Source: Alphaproteobacteria bacterium
Lineage (GTDB): Bacteria; Pseudomonadota; Alphaproteobacteria; Rs-D84
Reading direction: 5' to 3'
DNA: 64,000 nucleotides
Assembly: GCA_017472065.1 (NCBI GenBank)
Contig: JAFURB010000007.1
Coordinates: forward strand, 1 to 64,000
Translations under genes and position numbers: made by a program
Shown here: positions 27,058-36,393 of the stretch, piece by piece
Layout of the letters: every line of letters starts with the position of its first letter
Position numbering within the stretch: position 1 is the first letter of the stretch
The notes under the pieces: generated by a model
What the model saw: the letters and a program-made list of their open reading frames with translations, nothing else
What the model was told of the DNA's origin: nothing
The model's database searches: none

Positions 27058-27086
27058 TTGATTATTAGGAATATATATTGTATAAT
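27058..27086 (+). promoter_or_regulatory. Promoter of helicase-nuclease gene
   Basis: -35 TTGATT at 27058-27063, 17-nt spacer, perfect -10 TATAAT at 27081-27086, 25 nt before the ATG. Confidence 0.75.
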
Positions 27087-27111
27087 TAAAGAAATAGTGT
27101 CGGAGTTTATC

Positions 27112-30100
27112 ATGAAGTCACAAATAAAATTTGATAAAAAGTTTTTGGAAGGCATTTATAAGAAATTAACAGGCTTGGTTGGACGTACGCCAATACATTT
27201 GATGGCTGTGCCTGGTCGACTAAAAAACAGATTAGATTTATGCGACTTATCTATAGCCAACGTAGAACCAGATTTAGATTTGTTTTCTGACACATCAAAA
27301 ACAAAAAAAGATACATATGCAAAGAAGTTTTTAGAAACGCTATTGACTAAAGATAAATTTGATTTCCGATTTTCTTGGGAAGACAAGAAATTAACCAGTA
27401 TGGACGCAGAAATAAAAGACAGGCTTGTTATCGTTGGAAAGCGCCTAGATTCTATGGCTATAGATAACGAAGATTCTTTTATTGATACCGGACTGAAAAA
27501 TTTTGCCTTTGGGTATCCATTGCTGGTATTGCCAGACAAGAAAGATGAAAAAAAGACCATCGTAGCTCCTTTGTTCTTGTGGTCGCTGGATATCAGAAAG
27601 TCTAACCGTAAAAATGAGTGGATTATTTCAAAAAACGAAGATAGTCCAATCAAAATGAATGAAATTTTAATGTCGTACATTGAGAATTCAGAAAAACTTC
27701 AATTGGAACGCCTGGATATAGAAGATATTGACGATGGGATACTTCAAGAAAATGAAATACAAAAGTATCTGAAAGATATATTGAAGAAATTGAATATAAA
27801 ATTTGACGATCTGTCTCTGAAATTGGAACCTGTTGGCACAAAAGAGCATTTGGAAAAATTATGCTCTGGTAATGGTTTTGTTCAGTGGTCTGGGGTCTTT
27901 GGGCTTTTTCGTTCACAAAAAGAAACCATTATAGAATCCGTTTTAGAATTACAAAAAAATATAGATCAGTTTAATGCGGAAGATATGGAATTAGAGCGTT
28001 TTTCTACTTCATCTGAGGCTTCCTTTGATACAGATCCTAGTCAAGAAGAAATAATAAGAACTCTAAATGACAATGAGTTTAAGATTATTCAAGGGCCTCC
28101 GGGGACAGGTAAGAGTCAGGCAATCTCAGCGATCATTTCTAACGCACTGGCAAATGGTGCCAAGACATTGGTTGTCTGTGAGAAGAAAACTGCATTAGAC
28201 GTCTTGAAACACAATTTGTCGGAAAAGGGTTTAGACACTTTTTGTATAGTTGTTGATGATGTTAACAAAGACCGCAGAGCTGTGGTTGACAAAGCACGTG
28301 CTTTACAGCAATACAATCCGACCAAAGCATTTAATGAAGTGGAGTTTGAAAGAGATCAAGAAAATTTTAATAGATTAAGAGATTCTATTAACGCTTCATA
28401 CAAAGCTTCTAGCGAACCTATTTTTGAACAAAAAACATGGTCTGATTTGATTGGTTTGTTCTTAAAGAAATCCAAACGTGATGCCTTTGCATCAATTAGA
28501 GATAATCTGGAGCATGTAGCCACAGGTTGGGAATTTAATTCTGCAGAATTTGTAAATTATTGTAATTTGGTCAAACGTGGGGCAGAAACACATTCCGCAT
28601 GCAAGCATATAGATATAACCTCGTTTGACTTGTTTAATTTGGATAAAGAAATCGATTTATCTGTTAGTGGAAAAATTTTGATTGAAAAGAATATAGATGT
28701 TGCCGTAAAGCATATCAATAAGCTTATCAACTTTATTGATAATACAATTTTAGATATTGGTACAACATCTATGTATACCAAGACTGATAAACTATCCAAG
28801 TCCTTGGGGATTTGTAATAAGATAAAGGCAGACTCCACAAACGCTTCAAAATTATTGAGTGTAGGTAAAAAACAAGAATTTGTTGACATGATTGCCAAAA
28901 TAAACAATCAACTATCTATCATTTCAAAGTCTTGTGGCAAGGATATTGATTTGCTACCAATTGTAGATAAAGGAAAAATTCAAAGTGTACAACATTTTGA
29001 TAATGCTATGCGCGAATGTCTGGTAAAATTAAGCGAATTACAAAATAAACACAATATAATAACAGAAAGTAAAGATAATCTGGCTGATTGGATTAAAAGC
29101 GCAGGAGCGTTATGTGAAGATATACTTACTGTTGCCAGAAGATTTAATTGCAAATGCGAAAGTATGCAGTTAGATGAAAATGCTAAGGATAAGCTTAGAA
29201 GACTCTATTCTATTTTGGATGATGTAGAAGATATTCAAGAGGCTTTTGCAGAAGGAATTGAAATACTTGGGGAAGATTTTAATGCTTATAATTCAAATAT
29301 TGTAACAAGGCTTTTCTCTAAAAAGCTTTCAGAAAGTCATAAATATGCAAAAAAAGTACGTAAGAATTACAAGCAGTTGTTAAGAAAAATAGATGAGTAT
29401 ACAACAAAATATGGAGATTTTTGTTCGTATAATGACTGTGAAAGTGCTGCCCTGCTATCGATCAAGAAAGAAGCAGAAAACGTTTCTATTCAAACCAAAA
29501 ATACTCAAAATCTAATTTATGAACATATCAGATCTCATTTAGCTGATATTGAAAGCAATGTAAATGATATAAGCGCGGATTTGCATGCACGACAGAAAAA
29601 TCTGGCATTAGAACTAGAAGATATACAAAATAAGCTTAAAGAACGTGTATCTGAAGTAGATAATCTGCACAATATATTAAACTCTATAGTGGCAGGCCAA
29701 CAGATTTACGAAGAGGTAAAGGATACTGTTGCTAATAGTTTTAATGGTGTTGTAGCAAAGGATTTTGATTATAGAACAACCCAAGGTGCCAAAGAGTGTA
29801 CGGAAAAAATTAAGACAAAGCTAGTTTCGTTGTTAGATAAACTTGATGAGTTAGAAATATATGTTTCATGGCTACAAGAGTATAAAAGAGATGTAGTGTT
29901 GTTTGATTCTCTTTTGCTTGAGCAAGATGATTCTTATTGGGAAGATTTATTCCAAGCTGTTTATTATTATTACTTCTTGTTAAATCATGCCAAAAAGACA
30001 AAGAAGCAGTTTTTAACATCTGCAAAAGAGCCAGAATTGGCCTCATTGAGAGAGTTGTTTATAAAACTACAAAAGAATAATACGAAAAAAATCTTTAAAA

Positions 30101-31635
30101 CTTGGTATTATGAACGAGAAAATGCAATTGCGACTCTGGATAGTAAATATGGTTTCAAAACATTGTTCGCATTAAAAAGAGGAAAATACGCTAAGAAACT
30201 GTCTTTGAGACAAATTATTGACAAAGAGTTTGACGCATTTACTGATTTATTCCCCGTAATAATGGTTAACCCAATTGTTGCGAATGCCTTGCTTCCATTA
30301 AAACAGGGGCTGTTTAATCTGGTGATATTTGATGAGGCCAGTCAGTTAAGAATAGAAGATGTTTACACCTCAATGATACGTGGACAATATAAAATCATAG
30401 CAGGAGATAAACATCAGATGCCTCCGTCTAACTGGTTTGCAAAAAATGTAGATGGCGGAAGTGTTGATGGCAACGATGGTGACGATGACGGTTTTGACTT
30501 AGCACCTCTTGACTCAGAGTCGTTGTTGGAATATGCAGAAGGCTTCAAAAACGTTAAGGAGTTTGCATCTTATTTAGATTTTCATTACAGAAGCAAACAT
30601 CCTGCGTTAATAGAATTTTCAAATTGTGCATTCTATGGTTGTAATCTGTGCCCATTGCCGGCACGTATCGCTGCTAACAGTCCATTTACATATTACCATG
30701 TTGATGGTGTGTATGCAGATAGAATGAATGAAAAGGAGGCGTATAAAGTTATTGAGATAATAAAAGCATTGCCTACCATGTATCCTGGGAAACTGCCATC
30801 TGTTGGTATTGCAACATTTAATGTGCAACAACGCAATTTAATTAAATTGATGTTACATGAGGTTGCAGCAGAAGATACAGAATTCGCCAAGATATATGCA
30901 GAACTGGAACAACATAAAGATCCTTTGTTTGTAAAGAATCTAGAAAATATCCAAGGTGACGAAAGAGATATTATCATTATTTCCACAACATACGGACCTG
31001 CTCATGACGGTAAGTTTAAAGAACAGTTTGTTATAAATAGGGATGAAGGATATAGGCTGCTTAATGTGCTTATAACACGAGCAAAACAGCAACTGTTTTT
31101 AGTGACCTCAATTCCAGAGATGAAATTTGCTGACTATAAATCCAGATTAGAAGAAAAGCAGGAAAACAACCGCATAGCTGTATTTTATGCTTACTTAGCC
31201 TATGTGAAAGCACATGCACTTGGCGATCTTGCAACAGTAGATACTGTTTTAAAAACGATAAAAGAATACTCTTATGAAACACCTAGACGTGATACAAATA
31301 GTTCCGCTGAAGGATTAACAGAATCGCCATTTGAAGAAGAAGTGTATGAAGAGTTATTAAAAATACTGCCACAAGATGCTATTAAGCCTCAATACAAAGT
31401 TGGGGGATATAGACTTGACTTTTTGTTGAAAGTTGGCGGCAAGGATATAGCTCTGGAATGTGACGGGAAAGCATATCATGGCTCTGAAGAAGCGTTTGCA
31501 GAAGATATGCAGCGTCAAAAAATTCTAGAAAGCTATGGATATAAATTCTATAGAATATGGTCAACAAGTTGGTTTAGATCAAAAGATAGGGAAGTTATTA
31601 AATTAAAAAAGTTTATAGAACAAGAGAGTAAATAA
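27112..31635 (+). CDS. SF1 helicase with C-terminal PD-(D/E)XK nuclease
   Basis: A 1507-residue protein. The N-terminal 320 residues are of unknown fold. A superfamily 1 (DNA2/NAM7-like) helicase follows, split by a long coiled-coil insert (about 430-1000): Walker A GPPGTGKS at 328; Walker B F-D-E-A-S-Q with Asp1074/Glu1075; motif V region N-I-Q-G-D-E-R-D; motif VI L-L-N-V-L-I-T-R-A-K. The C-terminus has a Vsr/DUF559-like nuclease: R-L-D-F-L-L then E1449-C-D-G-K1453. Large proteins of this build occur in anti-phage islands, so a defence role is inferred. ATG 27112 has GGAG 7 nt upstream. Confidence 0.82.
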   Translation: MKSQIKFDKKFLEGIYKKLTGLVGRTPIHLMAVPGRLKNRLDLCDLSIANVEPDLDLFSDTSKTKKDTYAKKFLETLLTKDKFDFRFSWEDKKLTSMDAEIKDRLVIVGKRLDSMAIDNEDSFIDTGLKNFAFGYPLLVLPDKKDEKKTIVAPLFLWSLDIRKSNRKNEWIISKNEDSPIKMNEILMSYIENSEKLQLERLDIEDIDDGILQENEIQKYLKDILKKLNIKFDDLSLKLEPVGTKEHLEKLCSGNGFVQWSGVFGLFRSQKETIIESVLELQKNIDQFNAEDMELERFSTSSEASFDTDPSQEEIIRTLNDNEFKIIQGPPGTGKSQAISAIISNALANGAKTLVVCEKKTALDVLKHNLSEKGLDTFCIVVDDVNKDRRAVVDKARALQQYNPTKAFNEVEFERDQENFNRLRDSINASYKASSEPIFEQKTWSDLIGLFLKKSKRDAFASIRDNLEHVATGWEFNSAEFVNYCNLVKRGAETHSACKHIDITSFDLFNLDKEIDLSVSGKILIEKNIDVAVKHINKLINFIDNTILDIGTTSMYTKTDKLSKSLGICNKIKADSTNASKLLSVGKKQEFVDMIAKINNQLSIISKSCGKDIDLLPIVDKGKIQSVQHFDNAMRECLVKLSELQNKHNIITESKDNLADWIKSAGALCEDILTVARRFNCKCESMQLDENAKDKLRRLYSILDDVEDIQEAFAEGIEILGEDFNAYNSNIVTRLFSKKLSESHKYAKKVRKNYKQLLRKIDEYTTKYGDFCSYNDCESAALLSIKKEAENVSIQTKNTQNLIYEHIRSHLADIESNVNDISADLHARQKNLALELEDIQNKLKERVSEVDNLHNILNSIVAGQQIYEEVKDTVANSFNGVVAKDFDYRTTQGAKECTEKIKTKLVSLLDKLDELEIYVSWLQEYKRDVVLFDSLLLEQDDSYWEDLFQAVYYYYFLLNHAKKTKKQFLTSAKEPELASLRELFIKLQKNNTKKIFKTWYYERENAIATLDSKYGFKTLFALKRGKYAKKLSLRQIIDKEFDAFTDLFPVIMVNPIVANALLPLKQGLFNLVIFDEASQLRIEDVYTSMIRGQYKIIAGDKHQMPPSNWFAKNVDGGSVDGNDGDDDGFDLAPLDSESLLEYAEGFKNVKEFASYLDFHYRSKHPALIEFSNCAFYGCNLCPLPARIAANSPFTYYHVDGVYADRMNEKEAYKVIEIIKALPTMYPGKLPSVGIATFNVQQRNLIKLMLHEVAAEDTEFAKIYAELEQHKDPLFVKNLENIQGDERDIIIISTTYGPAHDGKFKEQFVINRDEGYRLLNVLITRAKQQLFLVTSIPEMKFADYKSRLEEKQENNRIAVFYAYLAYVKAHALGDLATVDTVLKTIKEYSYETPRRDTNSSAEGLTESPFEEEVYEELLKILPQDAIKPQYKVGGYRLDFLLKVGGKDIALECDGKAYHGSEEAFAEDMQRQKILESYGYKFYRIWSTSWFRSKDREVIKLKKFIEQESK

Positions 31636-31673: not shown

Positions 31674-32456
31674 TTATTGCACATCTTGTTTTGCAACAGA
31701 TAACTGTTTCTTTTTTTCCGCTTTTTTAATCATCTTTTTCAAAACCTTTTGATATTCTTTCGCCTCATCACTATCCCAAACCTCTCGCTTAAATATATCA
31801 AACTTTATAAAATTAGAAATCTCTTCATCTGTTATTTTGATACTATTTTCAAAATACAGCTTTATTTGTTTTTTTATAAGCTTATATATCTCAGGACTAT
31901 CTATCACCCCCGCAAGGACATACTTATTTTTCACTTGATTATTTGAATAAATCTCATCTATTACAGAAAGATCCTGACCTTCTTTACTAAGAGCAAAAAC
32001 AACCTCAAGTTGTTTTTCTTTTTTTAAATCCATGTCTAATAAATTGAATTCAAAAACCAATTCTCGTTCTATTGGTTGACTGTATTTAATTTTATAAACC
32101 TTCCAATCTACAGAATTTGTTAATACAACCCACTTTGTTCCATGATTAACACCGTAATCTGTAGCCTGTTTAATATGATTTTCTTTTAAAGGAATAGACA
32201 CCCCTTTTGCTTCTACTAACATGTAAATCTTACCACTTTGTTGCTTTATTGCCAAATCACAAAAGGTTCCACGAATTGCATATTCACTAGTTATTTCGGT
32301 ATATTTATCATATCCAAAAAGATCCGCAAAAATATCGTTAATAACTTTAACTGTATCCGTTTCATTAACTTCTTGTCTTTTTAATTTTCTAACAATAACC
32401 TGATACTTTTTTAATTGTTCATTTGCTCTTTTTATAAACTTTGCGGGAATCTTCAT
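31674..32456 (-). CDS. HsdR-N-like (PD-(D/E)XK) nuclease-domain protein
   Basis: A 260-residue protein with a type I restriction HsdR N-terminal-like fold: E-x-x-I-x-G-T-F-C-D67-L-A-I, then M-L-V-E82-A-K84-G, the D...E-x-K active site, followed by Q-A-x-x-Y-G...W-V-V-L-T-N. The C-terminal 110 residues are helical and Lys-rich. Stand-alone HSDR_N_2 proteins are frequent in defence islands. It converges on the helicase-nuclease gene and may act with it or alone; no HsdM/HsdS is present. Confidence 0.75.
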   Translation of the reverse strand: MKIPAKFIKRANEQLKKYQVIVRKLKRQEVNETDTVKVINDIFADLFGYDKYTEITSEYAIRGTFCDLAIKQQSGKIYMLVEAKGVSIPLKENHIKQATDYGVNHGTKWVVLTNSVDWKVYKIKYSQPIERELVFEFNLLDMDLKKEKQLEVVFALSKEGQDLSVIDEIYSNNQVKNKYVLAGVIDSPEIYKLIKKQIKLYFENSIKITDEEISNFIKFDIFKREVWDSDEAKEYQKVLKKMIKKAEKKKQLSVAKQDVQ

Positions 32457-32541: not shown

Positions 32542-32862
32542 TTATGCTGCTACACTTTGATTATATGTACTTTTAGGCGTAAAATTAACTTTTAAACCCA
32601 ACGCATCTATTGCTTTAAAAACAGTTTCTACATTTGGACGACGTGCGCCAGAGAAACTTTTATACAAAGATTCGCGTCCTACCCCTATTTCTTTTGCTAT
32701 CTTATTTATGCTACGTGCTTTTGCAACATTTCCAAGGGCTATTAAAAAATACTCGATATCATTTTCTTCTAATGCAGCTTCCAGATAGTTAGCAATATCT
32801 TCTTCTGTTTTAAGATAATCCAGAATATTCCATTCTGTTATCTTGTTAGCACCCTTTTTCAT
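32542..32862 (-). CDS. HI1420-type antitoxin
   Basis: A 106-residue HTH protein of the addiction-module antidote family: an N-terminal segment D-Y-L-K-T-E-E-D-I-A-N-Y-L, then an HTH with A-K-E-I-G-V-G-R-E-S-L-Y-K-S-F-S-G-A-R-R-P, and a C-terminal A-L-G-L-K-V-N-F. It is downstream of the toxin gene, the order typical of HI1419/HI1420 pairs. It should neutralise the toxin and repress the operon. Confidence 0.88.
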   Translation of the reverse strand: MKKGANKITEWNILDYLKTEEDIANYLEAALEENDIEYFLIALGNVAKARSINKIAKEIGVGRESLYKSFSGARRPNVETVFKAIDALGLKVNFTPKSTYNQSVAA

Positions 32863-32913
32863 GATTTACTCCTTTGAGTAATTTGTTATCTACTAACCGA
32901 TGACATCCTACGT

Positions 32914-33207
32914 CTACGGTAGTGTTGCCAATATATTCTTGGCCTTTTCAATATCTGACTGTTGCGTCGATTTGTCGCCCCCAATCAGCAACAAGATAAT
33001 TTCTTCACCTTGCCTCGTATAATAAACCCTATATCCAGGACCGTAATTTATTCGCAATTCATAAATCCCATCACCAACTGGCTTAAAATCACCAAAATGA
33101 TTTTGTGTTGCGATGCGATCTATCCTTGTGCTTATCCTAAACTGCGCTTCGGAATCTTTTAATTTATCAAACCATTTTACATATTCTGTTGTCTGCTTTA
33201 TTAACAT
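32914..33207 (-). CDS. HI1419-type RelE/HigB-fold toxin
   Basis: A 97-residue protein of the phage Gp49/HigB-like killer family: E-Y-V-K-W-F-D-K-L-K-D, R-I-S-T-R-I-D-R-I, G-D-x-K-P-V-G-D-G-I-Y-E-L-R, G-P-G-Y-R-V-Y-Y-T-R and a terminal L-L-I-G-G-D-K-S-T-Q. Members of this fold are ribosome-dependent mRNA endonucleases. The gap to the antitoxin gene is 51 nt. Confidence 0.88.
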   Translation of the reverse strand: MLIKQTTEYVKWFDKLKDSEAQFRISTRIDRIATQNHFGDFKPVGDGIYELRINYGPGYRVYYTRQGEEIILLLIGGDKSTQQSDIEKAKNILATLP

Positions 33208-33688: not shown

Positions 33689-33827
33689 AAGCGAACTGCA
33701 TTATAACAGACTTTTTTAGGATTGCAAGTAACAAAATATTTATGGGATTTTGTTCATCTTTACAATCTTTAAGTTTTTTAATAATTTGTGTTTGAACGCC
33801 GGGCTAATTTGTGATATCATGGGAGTT

Positions 33828-34391
33828 ATGAAAAAAATCGTATGTGCTTTGTGTGGGGTGGTCGTGGCGACAAATGTCGCATGGGCTGAACGTGTTAATC
33901 CTTTCTTTAAGGGGTATGAAAATCAGGTCGCAATTAATGTTGGCTATGGGGTAAATCATGGGTTCTTGTTGCCGGCGCCAACGCAATTTGTGCCGTTCCA
34001 TATGTTGCATTTGCAATATTCGCAACCAACTGAATTTTTTGGGATGCAGGCACGAAAGTCTTTGAATATTATGCAGACATTGGGCCATGGGTCAAAGTAT
34101 GGGTGGCATTGGGATAAATATACAATTCCAATCGCAATGCTAAGCGAGGATGTGTCACCATTGTACGGCGAAGATTGGTACACATTTATCGGGATTGGTG
34201 TCGGGTTCCAGGCCCAGCAAAATGAACGCATTGGTTCTAAGTTATTATTTGGGTTCAAATTCGGGGCAGGGTACAGATTGTCTGATTGTACATCCGTTGA
34301 ATTGTTTGCACATCATTTTTCGAACGGGAATACGGCGCCGGAAAATAATTCTTATGCCTTTTATGGTTTGGGATTAACGTACAGTTTTTAG
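33828..34391 (+). CDS. PagL-like lipid A 3-O-deacylase
   Basis: A 187-residue outer-membrane barrel. Signal peptide (cleavage after A-W-A), beta-strand pattern, and a C-terminal F-Y-G-L-G-L-T-Y-S-F. The PagL catalytic signature H-x-S-N is seen as His163-Phe-Ser165-Asn in VELFAHHFSNGN. PagL removes the 3-position acyl chain of lipid A and dampens host recognition. It is not in an operon with the lpx genes. The assignment rests on the motif and size. Confidence 0.75.
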   Translation: MKKIVCALCGVVVATNVAWAERVNPFFKGYENQVAINVGYGVNHGFLLPAPTQFVPFHMLHLQYSQPTEFFGMQARKSLNIMQTLGHGSKYGWHWDKYTIPIAMLSEDVSPLYGEDWYTFIGIGVGFQAQQNERIGSKLLFGFKFGAGYRLSDCTSVELFAHHFSNGNTAPENNSYAFYGLGLTYSF

Positions 34392-34403
34392 TAAAGAAAA
34401 CGG

Positions 34404-34431
34404 TTGCAAAATATATTTATCAAATTATAAT
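34404..34431 (+). promoter_or_regulatory. Promoter of aspS leader
   Basis: -35 TTGCAA at 34404-34409, 16-nt spacer, perfect -10 TATAAT at 34426-34431. The predicted start is near 34438, leaving a leader of about 185 nt. Confidence 0.75.
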
Positions 34432-34437
34432 TTGTGT

Positions 34438-34610
34438 CAGAATTTATGCAGATGTTCATGTTGACGTGCCTGACAACCACCGAGTGTTCATAAGCAATCT
34501 AAAAGTTATAAGCCAGGGTGGCACCGCGCCGGAAATATCCAGCGCCCCTGATGTTTTAACAAAAAATTGGGTGCCGAAAAATCTAAACTTTTTTCGATGC
34601 CCGCAGATAA
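34438..34610 (+). promoter_or_regulatory. T-box riboswitch candidate upstream of aspS
   Basis: The 14-nt T-box core AGGGTGGCACCGCG lies at 34515-34528. It folds as a canonical antiterminator: AGGG (34515) with CCCT (34546), bulge TGGCACC, GCGC (34526) with GCGC (34542). The bulge UGGC would pair with a tRNA 3' end GCCA, the end of tRNA-Asp with discriminator G. Upstream, TTATG...CATAA closes a stem I candidate with GAC codons near its apex. GCGCCC (34542) can pair instead with GGGTGC (34569), giving a competing fold. A long hairpin (34569-34603) then reaches the ribosome site. How output is controlled (transcription or translation) is not clear. Confidence 0.8.
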
Positions 34611-34623
34611 AAAAGGGACCAAA

Positions 34624-36393
34624 ATGTTATCTTTGAAATCAAAGTTCAGAACACATACATGTGGTGAATTAAATGCAAAAAATGTTGGTGAAACAGTAAC
34701 TTTGTCCGGGTGGGTTCATCGTAAACGTGACCATGGGGCGTTGTTGTTTGTGGACCTGCGCGATAATTATGGTATTACACAGATCGTTTTTGATGGTGGT
34801 AACGAAGAACTGGAACGCGTGCGTCCGGAATCTGTGATTAAGGTTACAGGTAATGTTGTTGCGCGTGATGTCGCGGCGGTTAATGATAAAATTCCAACAG
34901 GTGCAATTGAAATTCAGGCAACTTCGTTCGAAGTTTTAACAAATTCAGAAGTTTTGCCGTTCCAGGTGTTCGGCGAAGACGAAGTGGGCGAAGAACTGAG
35001 ATATAAATATCGTTTCTTGGATTTGCGCCGTGAAAAATTACATAACACTATTTTAACACGCAACAAAATGATGAAATGGTTGCGCGATAAGATGTGGGAT
35101 TTGGGTTTCTCGGAATTCCAAACACCGGTTTTGACCGCATCCAGTCCAGAAGGGGCGCGTGACTTTATCGTGCCATCGCGTTTGCATCATGGTAAATTCT
35201 ATGCGTTGCCACAAGCACCACAGATGTTCAAACAATTGTTACAGGTATCTGGATTTGATAGATATTTCCAGATTGCGCCATGTTTCCGTGACGAAGATTT
35301 GCGTGCAGACAGATTATTGGAATTTTATCAATTAGACTTGGAAATGTCGTTTGTTGACCTGAAAGATATTCAGGCCGTGGGTGACGAAGTTATGCCAAAC
35401 CTGGTGCGTGAATTTGCACCAGATGCAAATGTTTATCCAGAAATTCCACATATCACATTTGATGATGCAATGCTGAAATATGGTTCGGATAAGCCAGATT
35501 TACGCAATCCAATCATCATCCATGATGTAACAGAAGTGTTCCGTGGATCTGATTTTGGTATCTTTGCAAATGCGGTTGAAAATGGCAGTGTTGTTCGTGC
35601 AATCCCAGCACCAAACAGTGCGGATAAACCACGTTCTTGGTTTGATAAACTGGGCGAATATGCGGTCAAAGAATTGGGCCTGGGCGGTCTGGGGTACATC
35701 GTGTTCGCCGATGAGGCCAAGGGACCTGTTGCAAAAAAATTAGACGCGGCGCGGGTTGCAAAACTGCGCGAAGTTGCAGGTGATAATTCATCATTGTTCT
35801 TTGTTTGTGATGTGGCCGAACCGGCATCCAAGGCGGCGGGTAAACTGCGTAACAAATTGGGCGCGGATTTGGGGTTGATTAACCCACGTGACTTTGCGTT
35901 CTGTTGGGTGGAATCGTTCCCGTTCTTTGAACCAGACGAAGACAGGGGTGGCGCACCAAAGTTTACGCATAATCCGTTCTCGTTCCCGATGGCAACATTG
36001 GCGGAATTGGATACTAAAAATCCGTTTGATATCAAAGCGGCCCAGTTCGATATGGTGTTAAATGGTTTGGAAATTTGCAGTGGTGGGTTGCGTAACTATA
36101 ACCCAGATATTATGAAGAAATGCTTTGAAATCGCAGGATATCCAATTGAGGCGGTTGAAAAGAATTTCAGTGGTCTGTACACTGCGTTCCAATATGGCGC
36201 TCCACCGCACGGTGGATGTGCGTTCGGTATTGATCGTTTGGTATCAGAAATTACTGGGTTCGGTGACAGTGTTCGCGAAGTGGTTGCATTCCCAGCCAAC
36301 CAACGCGGCCAAGACCTTTTGATGGGCAGTCCGAACGAGGTGACCGAACAACAATTACGCGATGTTCATATCAATATCCGTAAAAAGAATTAA
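34624..36393 (+). CDS. aspS: Aspartyl-tRNA synthetase
   Basis: A 589-residue class II synthetase. The N-terminal OB fold (LSGWVHRKRDHGALLFVDLRD) binds the anticodon. Motif 2 is FRDEDLRADR and motif 3 GIDRL. A large bacterial insert domain lies between. Alphaproteobacterial AspRS usually also charges tRNA-Asn (non-discriminating), with GatCAB completing Asn-tRNA; that could hold here but is not shown. ATG 34624 has AAGGGA upstream; a longer frame starting with TTG 57 nt upstream would run through the leader hairpin. Confidence 0.97.
   Translation: MLSLKSKFRTHTCGELNAKNVGETVTLSGWVHRKRDHGALLFVDLRDNYGITQIVFDGGNEELERVRPESVIKVTGNVVARDVAAVNDKIPTGAIEIQATSFEVLTNSEVLPFQVFGEDEVGEELRYKYRFLDLRREKLHNTILTRNKMMKWLRDKMWDLGFSEFQTPVLTASSPEGARDFIVPSRLHHGKFYALPQAPQMFKQLLQVSGFDRYFQIAPCFRDEDLRADRLLEFYQLDLEMSFVDLKDIQAVGDEVMPNLVREFAPDANVYPEIPHITFDDAMLKYGSDKPDLRNPIIIHDVTEVFRGSDFGIFANAVENGSVVRAIPAPNSADKPRSWFDKLGEYAVKELGLGGLGYIVFADEAKGPVAKKLDAARVAKLREVAGDNSSLFFVCDVAEPASKAAGKLRNKLGADLGLINPRDFAFCWVESFPFFEPDEDRGGAPKFTHNPFSFPMATLAELDTKNPFDIKAAQFDMVLNGLEICSGGLRNYNPDIMKKCFEIAGYPIEAVEKNFSGLYTAFQYGAPPHGGCAFGIDRLVSEITGFGDSVREVVAFPANQRGQDLLMGSPNEVTEQQLRDVHINIRKKN

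Follow-up and report, generated by a model that had tools for sequence, protein, structure and literature searches.

T-boxes are known almost exclusively as a Gram-positive device, which raises the question of what one would be doing in front of aspS, the aspartyl-tRNA synthetase gene, of an alphaproteobacterium. The locus lies in a 64,000-nucleotide stretch of contig JAFURB010000007.1 (hereafter the window; features are on the forward strand unless stated otherwise), for which an original prediction had proposed a complete T-box antiterminator behind a strong promoter, responding to the charging of tRNA-Asp. Within Proteobacteria, T-boxes have been listed only for leuA of Geobacter and Pelobacter (PMC2494555), and translational T-boxes have been described from Actinobacteria, the only group scanned with the class II model of TBDB (PMC7778990). 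A literature search, with most subscription papers outside its reach, found no published T-box from Alphaproteobacteria. Here we propose, with a probability of roughly 0.83, that the aspS leader is a minimal translational T-box riboswitch that senses tRNA-Asp charging.

An ultrashort Stem I and a canonical antisequestrator precede aspS

The gene in question (34624..36393) matches profiles of the bacterial type of aspartyl-tRNA synthetase (AspRS), its 589-aa product scoring 567 bits with TIGR00459 (cut-off 374) and 724 bits with PRK00476 (cut-off 443). Its 5' leader spans 34438-34623 (186 nt), with the aptamer and antisequestrator at 34454-34549. Transcription is expected to start near 34438, and the promoter described as strong is present as TTGCAA-16-TATAAT at 34404..34431, but this is a consensus match only (10/12), and chance would supply 1.4 sites as good in the stretch. 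The T-box core AGGGTGGCACCGCG lies where it had been reported, at 34515-34528, about 96 nt before the aspS ATG at 34624, and is the sole exact match in the window, where chance alone would give 0.51 matches with up to two mismatches. All predicted parts of the canonical antiterminator, here called the antisequestrator (34515..34549), could likewise be located: an outer helix AGGG/CCCU (34515-34518/34546-34549), a 7-nt bulge UGGCACC (34519-34525) and an inner helix GCGC/GCGC (34526-34529/34542-34545). In 66 related leaders, 100% of the cells of this element are paired, with compensatory changes in the outer helix.

Upstream of the core, where GAC codons had been noticed, a GAC occupies positions 34472-34474 in the apical loop of an ultrashort Stem I (34454..34489), a structure supported by covariation of helices 2 and 3 in the 66 leaders and by RNAalifold. 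Stem I comprises a lower helix (34454-34459/34484-34489, with two U.U mismatches in the window), a kink-turn (GUU 34460-34462, GA 34463-34464, GA 34482-34483 and the non-standard pair C34465.C34481) and a 3-bp upper helix GUG/CAC (34466-34468/34478-34480). The latter is capped by the 9-nt specifier loop CCUGACAAC (34469..34477), as defined by the loop consensus of 71 leaders, and the elbow-binding double T-loop is missing. A linker at 34490..34514, marked by a conserved AAG (34503-34505) and an AnAA in invariant or nearly invariant alignment columns, occupies the place held in other T-boxes by Stem II, IIA/B and Stem III. Only about 17-25 nt separate Stem I from the T-box, too few for a Stem II with S-turn or a IIA/B pseudoknot, neither of which is found in the window leader, and Stem III is likewise absent from it; across leaders, the specifier hairpin and the T-box are 30-36 nt apart. 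The description of this T-box as complete thus does not hold, given an ultrashort Stem I and the loss of all three of these elements.

Between the antisequestrator and the gene lie element D, GGGUGCC (34569..34575), which is complementary to both T-box GGCACC and 3' arm GCGCC; element E, UUUUUUCGAUGCCC (34589..34602), a proposed anti-Shine-Dalgarno sequence that pairs with D and shows co-change in 55 leaders; and the Shine-Dalgarno sequence AAGGGA (34613..34618).

Directly upstream of the leader is a gene for a PagL-like lipid A 3-O-deacylase (33819-34391, forward strand; PF09411), preceded on the reverse strand by a toxin-antidote pair at 32542-33207 (a RelE/ParE-family toxin, TIGR02683, and an addiction-module antidote, TIGR02684). 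Farther upstream, a forward-strand gene (27058-31635) encodes a protein of 1525 aa that combines AAA helicase domains with an REase_MTES_1575 nuclease domain at its C-terminus; it adjoins a gene for an HSDR_N-like protein (31674-32456), and the two are possible defence genes. In many members of the genus (L034, L036, L044 and others), the aspS leader directly follows an apparent tRNA gene end, GGGCACCAG, and may there be cut from a tRNA transcript.

Covariation and distribution support a lineage-specific T-box

The public T-box family model RF00230 produced a single match in the window genome, at 34394-34552, with 20.0 bits and a genome-wide E of 0.009. Since the gathering score is 93 bits, this model alone would not name the leader; just 2/14 control genomes passed the RF00230 cut-off. 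The sub-threshold score is a limit of a model that expects a long Stem I plus Stem II and not a structural definition, and covariance-model support for the leader, which RF00230 withheld, was obtained with a lineage-specific model (R1). This was built from an alignment of 66 related leaders, A1, that includes the window sequence itself; the leaders were picked with the loop pattern YYRAC, a choice that in part predetermines positions 2-6 of the loop and leaves helix covariation unaffected.

A core with at most one mismatch was found in 87/95 genomes of the window's family, mostly before aspS. Several pattern hits (L013, L014, L026 and L027) lay inside unrelated genes and were rejected as T-box leaders. 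Over Stem I and the antisequestrator of the 66 leaders, 91.1% of cells are paired, compared to 39-53% with slid partners, and the covariation score is 0.49, compared to 0.08-0.13 for slid structures; both sides have changed in 14/20 pairs, and RNAalifold recovered the same helices without any prior structure. Relatives thus carry the same leader with its antiterminator pairing kept through compensatory variants, the outer helix occurring as AGGG/CCCU, GGGG/CCCC, CGGG/CCCG and AAGG/CCUU. The non-standard kink-turn pair also covaries, being mostly U.G, C.C, C.A or A.A.

The distribution of R1 matches is sharply bounded: 160/190 genomes in a sample of the order, 5/289 in a sample of the class (3 of them in the window's family) and 2/398 in a sample of the phylum, both in the window's family. 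Among 80 named aspS loci, all 40 from gut relatives have an R1 element before aspS, truncated in one case by a contig end, and none of the other 40 does. The named relatives are MAGs labelled Alphaproteobacteria bacterium or Candidatus Enterousia, many of them from ruminant, horse and rabbit guts. Taken together, the covariation and the distribution of R1 support the claim of a T-box before an alphaproteobacterial aspS, and indicate that the leader is very probably genuine.

The specifier loop and bulge match tRNA-Asp

The tRNA-Asp(GUC) of the window genome ends in CCCGCCA, and the proposed fit between the UGGC bulge and a tRNA-Asp with discriminator G73 is borne out: the bulge is complementary to its GCCA end, and the specifier GAC, followed by the purine A34475, to its anticodon GUC. 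Among 40 tRNA genes examined, those for Asp, Glu, Trp, Ser and Arg end in GCCA, and tRNA-Asp is the only recovered tRNA that has both this end and an anticodon for GAC; no tRNA-Asn gene was recovered from the assembly, which is 80% complete. In all 71 leaders the specifier triplet, GAC in 64 and AAC in 7, is followed by a purine. The inner seven loop bases conform to Y-U/C-[RAC]-R-A/C (CUGACAA in the window), a pattern that resembles the order of Y32, U33, triplet and R37 in a tRNA anticodon loop.

The choice of triplet goes with the type of gene downstream, with 67 GAC and 9 AAC among leaders of bacterial AspRS (n=76) and 3 GAC and 6 AAC among those of the archaeal-type AspRS2 (n=9; Fisher p 0.0007, kinship ignored). 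The window genome carries GatB and, at a contig edge, an AspRS2 fragment, and a complete AsnRS was not found in this 80% complete assembly; Asn-tRNA is therefore probably made by amidation, and the sensing of tRNA-Asn by some AspRS leaders would make sense. Where AAC is the first triplet, GAC often comes next (4/7, compared to 3/64 otherwise; for example L010, L052, L063 and L075), and these AAC-GAC pairs, at positions 4-9 of the Stem I loop, possibly reflect two-codon reading or a purine-purine loop contact.

Shine-Dalgarno sequestration is the likely output

The leader contains no terminator-like site. In short relatives, 24-38 nt separate the end of the antisequestrator 3' arm from the ATG. 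Their Shine-Dalgarno sequence, AAAGGUGCC or AAGGGACC, shows complementarity to GGCACC of the T-box or to GCGCCCCU of the 3' arm; the D sequence here coincides with the Shine-Dalgarno (AAAGGUGCC), at a distance of 9-11 nt from the start codon. In L072 and L073, forbidding the antisequestrator lowers predicted Shine-Dalgarno access from about 0.4 to 0.0. More generally, 56/68 leaders have GGUGCC downstream of the 3' arm and before the ATG, against 0.2 expected. Swapping partners among 55 leaders worsens D:E energies (0/5000 permutations as good, kinship ignored), and E changes together with the Shine-Dalgarno (2/5000 permutations, kinship ignored; p 0.004 with one representative per Shine-Dalgarno type). 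Examples of the latter include AAGGUGU with E GACACC, AAGGCGA with E UCGCC and AAGGAGCC with E GGUUUCUU; the window's own E:Shine-Dalgarno complementarity is short, at 3-4 pairs. Several relatives' leaders (L016, L029, L031 and L090) carry a palindromic repeat, CCCACTTCGCCAAGGCTTCGTGGGACAAG and variants, between E and the Shine-Dalgarno, a repeat that is absent from the window.

We modelled ON and OFF states by means of energy penalties, both with Stem I free and with Stem I held. With Stem I held, predicted Shine-Dalgarno access was higher when the antisequestrator was present (mean +0.26; 43/68 leaders up, 5 down), rising by 0.48 in 13 short leaders and standing at 0.81 versus 0.34 in the window. 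This effect is only partly specific: a shuffled-spacer control retained +0.17, and the real leaders exceeded it (p 0.006). With Stem I free, the switch was much weaker, at +0.12 overall and 0.33 versus 0.25 in the window. The pairings, co-changes and models together point to Shine-Dalgarno sequestration as the likely output, and the D/E relay seems a reasonable, if unproven, reading of window-type leaders.

Comparison between leaders supports Stem I and a canonical antisequestrator with a UGGC bulge, and from these we infer how tRNA would switch the leader. Uncharged tRNA-Asp would pair through its anticodon GUC with GAC and through its GCCA end with UGGC, thereby holding the antisequestrator; with the T-box and the 3' arm GCGCCCCU so occupied, D (GGGUGCC) would pair with E, leaving the Shine-Dalgarno free and allowing AspRS to be made. 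On charged tRNA-Asp, the aminoacyl group would block the bulge and the antisequestrator would open, upon which the T-box or the 3' arm would capture D, and E, or in some leaders the 3' arm itself, would pair with the Shine-Dalgarno and turn translation off. In relatives without D and E, the Shine-Dalgarno (AAAGGUGCC or AAGGGACC) would be captured directly.

Most known T-boxes are transcriptional, and the pairing of GCGCC with D, extended to GCGCCC/GGGUGC at 34569, sits at the usual place of a terminator, so that intrinsic or Rho-dependent termination in the leader unless uncharged tRNA-Asp binds deserves consideration. The complementarity, offered in the original prediction as an OFF-state fold, is real, but it is better placed as a step in the proposed relay than as a terminator. 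With no terminator-like site in the leader, with the D sequence of short relatives identical to the Shine-Dalgarno and with E:Shine-Dalgarno complementarity that tracks changes in the latter, termination is unlikely, though a Rho-dependent form is conceivable; the pairing and covariation point instead to Shine-Dalgarno sequestration, and the transcription antitermination implied by the name antiterminator is probably not how this leader works. That the switch has been lost altogether, the leader being inherited from a functional ancestor and inactive in the window's genus, could be suspected from the missing Stem II, IIA/B and Stem III and from the weakened lower helix of Stem I in the window; this is very unlikely given that strong compensatory change and invariant T-box positions over dozens of species speak for ongoing selection.

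E. coli ThrRS represses its own mRNA, and by analogy the leader could be an AspRS operator in which the specifier hairpin mimics the anticodon arm of tRNA-Asp, as the order of Y32, U33, triplet and R37 in the loop core CUGACAA might suggest. However, the triplet reads as a codon, GAC or AAC, and not as the anticodon GUC, and the invariant UGGCACC bulge, the covariation of the antisequestrator and the match to GCCA would all be left unexplained, making such an operator highly improbable. A leader-peptide attenuator, with a short ORF across the Stem I region as the sensor of Asp supply, is scarcely credible: the window leader does contain an ATG ORF of 15 codons, but without any Asp codon, ATG ORFs of at least 8 codons occur in only 40/71 leaders, those with at least two Asp codons were counted only 12 times, and it is the RNA structure instead of the ORF that is conserved.

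Fuller relatives and the origin of the leader

Some family members possess a second T-box, located before the archaeal-type AspRS2 (best match 'aspartate--tRNA(Asn) ligase'). An assignment of this second gene as asnS was rejected, as profile searches give archaeal-type AspRS2 and not AsnRS, and so was an AAC just 5' of the T-box as the specifier of AspRS2 leaders, the true Stem I with CUAACAA lying further upstream. In two cases (L055 and L058), aspS and aspS2 are divergent, each with a T-box, one minimal and one full, with a few hundred bases between the two cores. An ultrashort Stem I like that of the window is found in AspRS2 leaders and in the aspS leaders of a few other alphaproteobacteria (G281; G282, G392, G560; L054, L069, L070 and others). 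These fuller leaders, like L262, L263 and others, retain both the S-turn-bearing Stem II and the IIA/B pseudoknot, and their RF00230 scores are about 27-56 bits. Given that these relatives retain elements for which the window linker is too short, the window-type leader is, on sequence comparison, a reduced type.

With regard to origin, the nearest outside relatives of the window's AspRS are from Kiloniellaceae, Rhodospirillaceae and similar groups, among which the tree places it. By these relationships the synthetase is itself alphaproteobacterial and was not imported from Gram-positives; only the leader can therefore have been transferred, and the earlier suggestion of a transferred or independently retained T-box stands in that narrower form. 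The AspRS tree unites the T-box-bearing sequences of family f95 with those of the window's family and sets G281 apart, but its long branches make it unsure. No RF00230 match was found at seven aspS loci of other families in the same order, and R1 matched weakly in G103, G104 and G112 from such families, in G112 before AspRS2. RF00230 detected T-boxes in 0/398 phylum genomes at E 1e-4 and in 10/385 class genomes at E 0.01. One old gain with losses and a transfer of the leader are both possible.

Two further T-boxes were observed in the course of these searches. A canonical long T-box (L261:1501-1741), scoring 110 bits and thus above the gathering score, precedes an operon for DAHP synthase and prephenate dehydrogenase in G410, from another alphaproteobacterial family, and is possibly a transfer or contamination. 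In G107, of the window's order, a T-box with a UGGU bulge (L265:1501-1638) precedes a gene that was recognised by eye, from its sequence, as an apparent tyrosyl-tRNA synthetase of archaeal type; the T-boxes of this order may thus reach beyond Asp and Asn.

Discussion

Stem II has been held essential when Stem I is truncated (PMC7583486). Contrary to that model, a T-box with neither a long Stem I nor Stem II appears to run AspRS in a clade of gut alphaproteobacteria, and its GAC specifier does not offer the strong GGC:GCC pairing proposed for Gly T-boxes. If this is true, we know of no smaller natural T-box, and the leader would be a direct test of the minimal needs of tRNA sensing, for which the relatives that keep Stem II provide a natural series from full to minimal. 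We give even odds to the fuller proposition that a T-box functions here without any known aid to codon-anticodon recognition (the elbow-binding tip, Stem II S-turn, IIA/B and Stem III), that its specifier is offered in a loop resembling an anticodon loop, so that two complementary hairpin loops meet, and that a covarying hairpin relay signals to the ribosome site. Since a widespread lineage escapes the public model RF00230, Gram-negative T-boxes are probably undercounted.

The closest known systems are the class II ultrashort T-boxes of Actinobacteria, such as those of ileS in Mycobacterium tuberculosis and Nocardia farcinica (PMC10651847, PMC7583486), which share with the window leader a short kink-turn Stem I without the elbow-binding motif, a UGGN-bulge antisequestrator, a synthetase gene downstream and an output on translation, here predicted. 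The window leader differs from them in belonging to another phylum, in presumably sensing Asp/Asn rather than Ile, and in lacking the Stem II S-turn, the IIA/B pseudoknot and Stem III, and most leaders described here have the extra proposed D/E relay before the Shine-Dalgarno. Firmicutes glyQS leaders also do without Stem II and IIA/B, their Stem I kink-turn being followed by a linker. Unlike the window leader, glyQS keeps a long Stem I with the elbow-binding motif and a strong GGC:GCC pairing, two compensating features that are both missing here, and it acts on transcription. A two-codon T-box in the transamidation operon of Clostridium acetobutylicum was reportedly described by Saad and colleagues (Saad et al. 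2013). It controls Asp/Asn tRNA charging, and the adjacent GAC and AAC triplets seen here invite the same question; that T-box is long, Gram-positive and senses two tRNAs, whereas dual reading by the present leaders is hypothetical. The leuA leaders of Geobacter and Pelobacter (PMC2494555) are, as here, T-boxes in Gram-negatives, but they are typical ones before a biosynthesis gene in two deltaproteobacterial genomes and not alphaproteobacterial synthetase leaders. Set against these systems, the leader predicted here is new in lineage, amino acid and size, and its expression platform is probably new as well.
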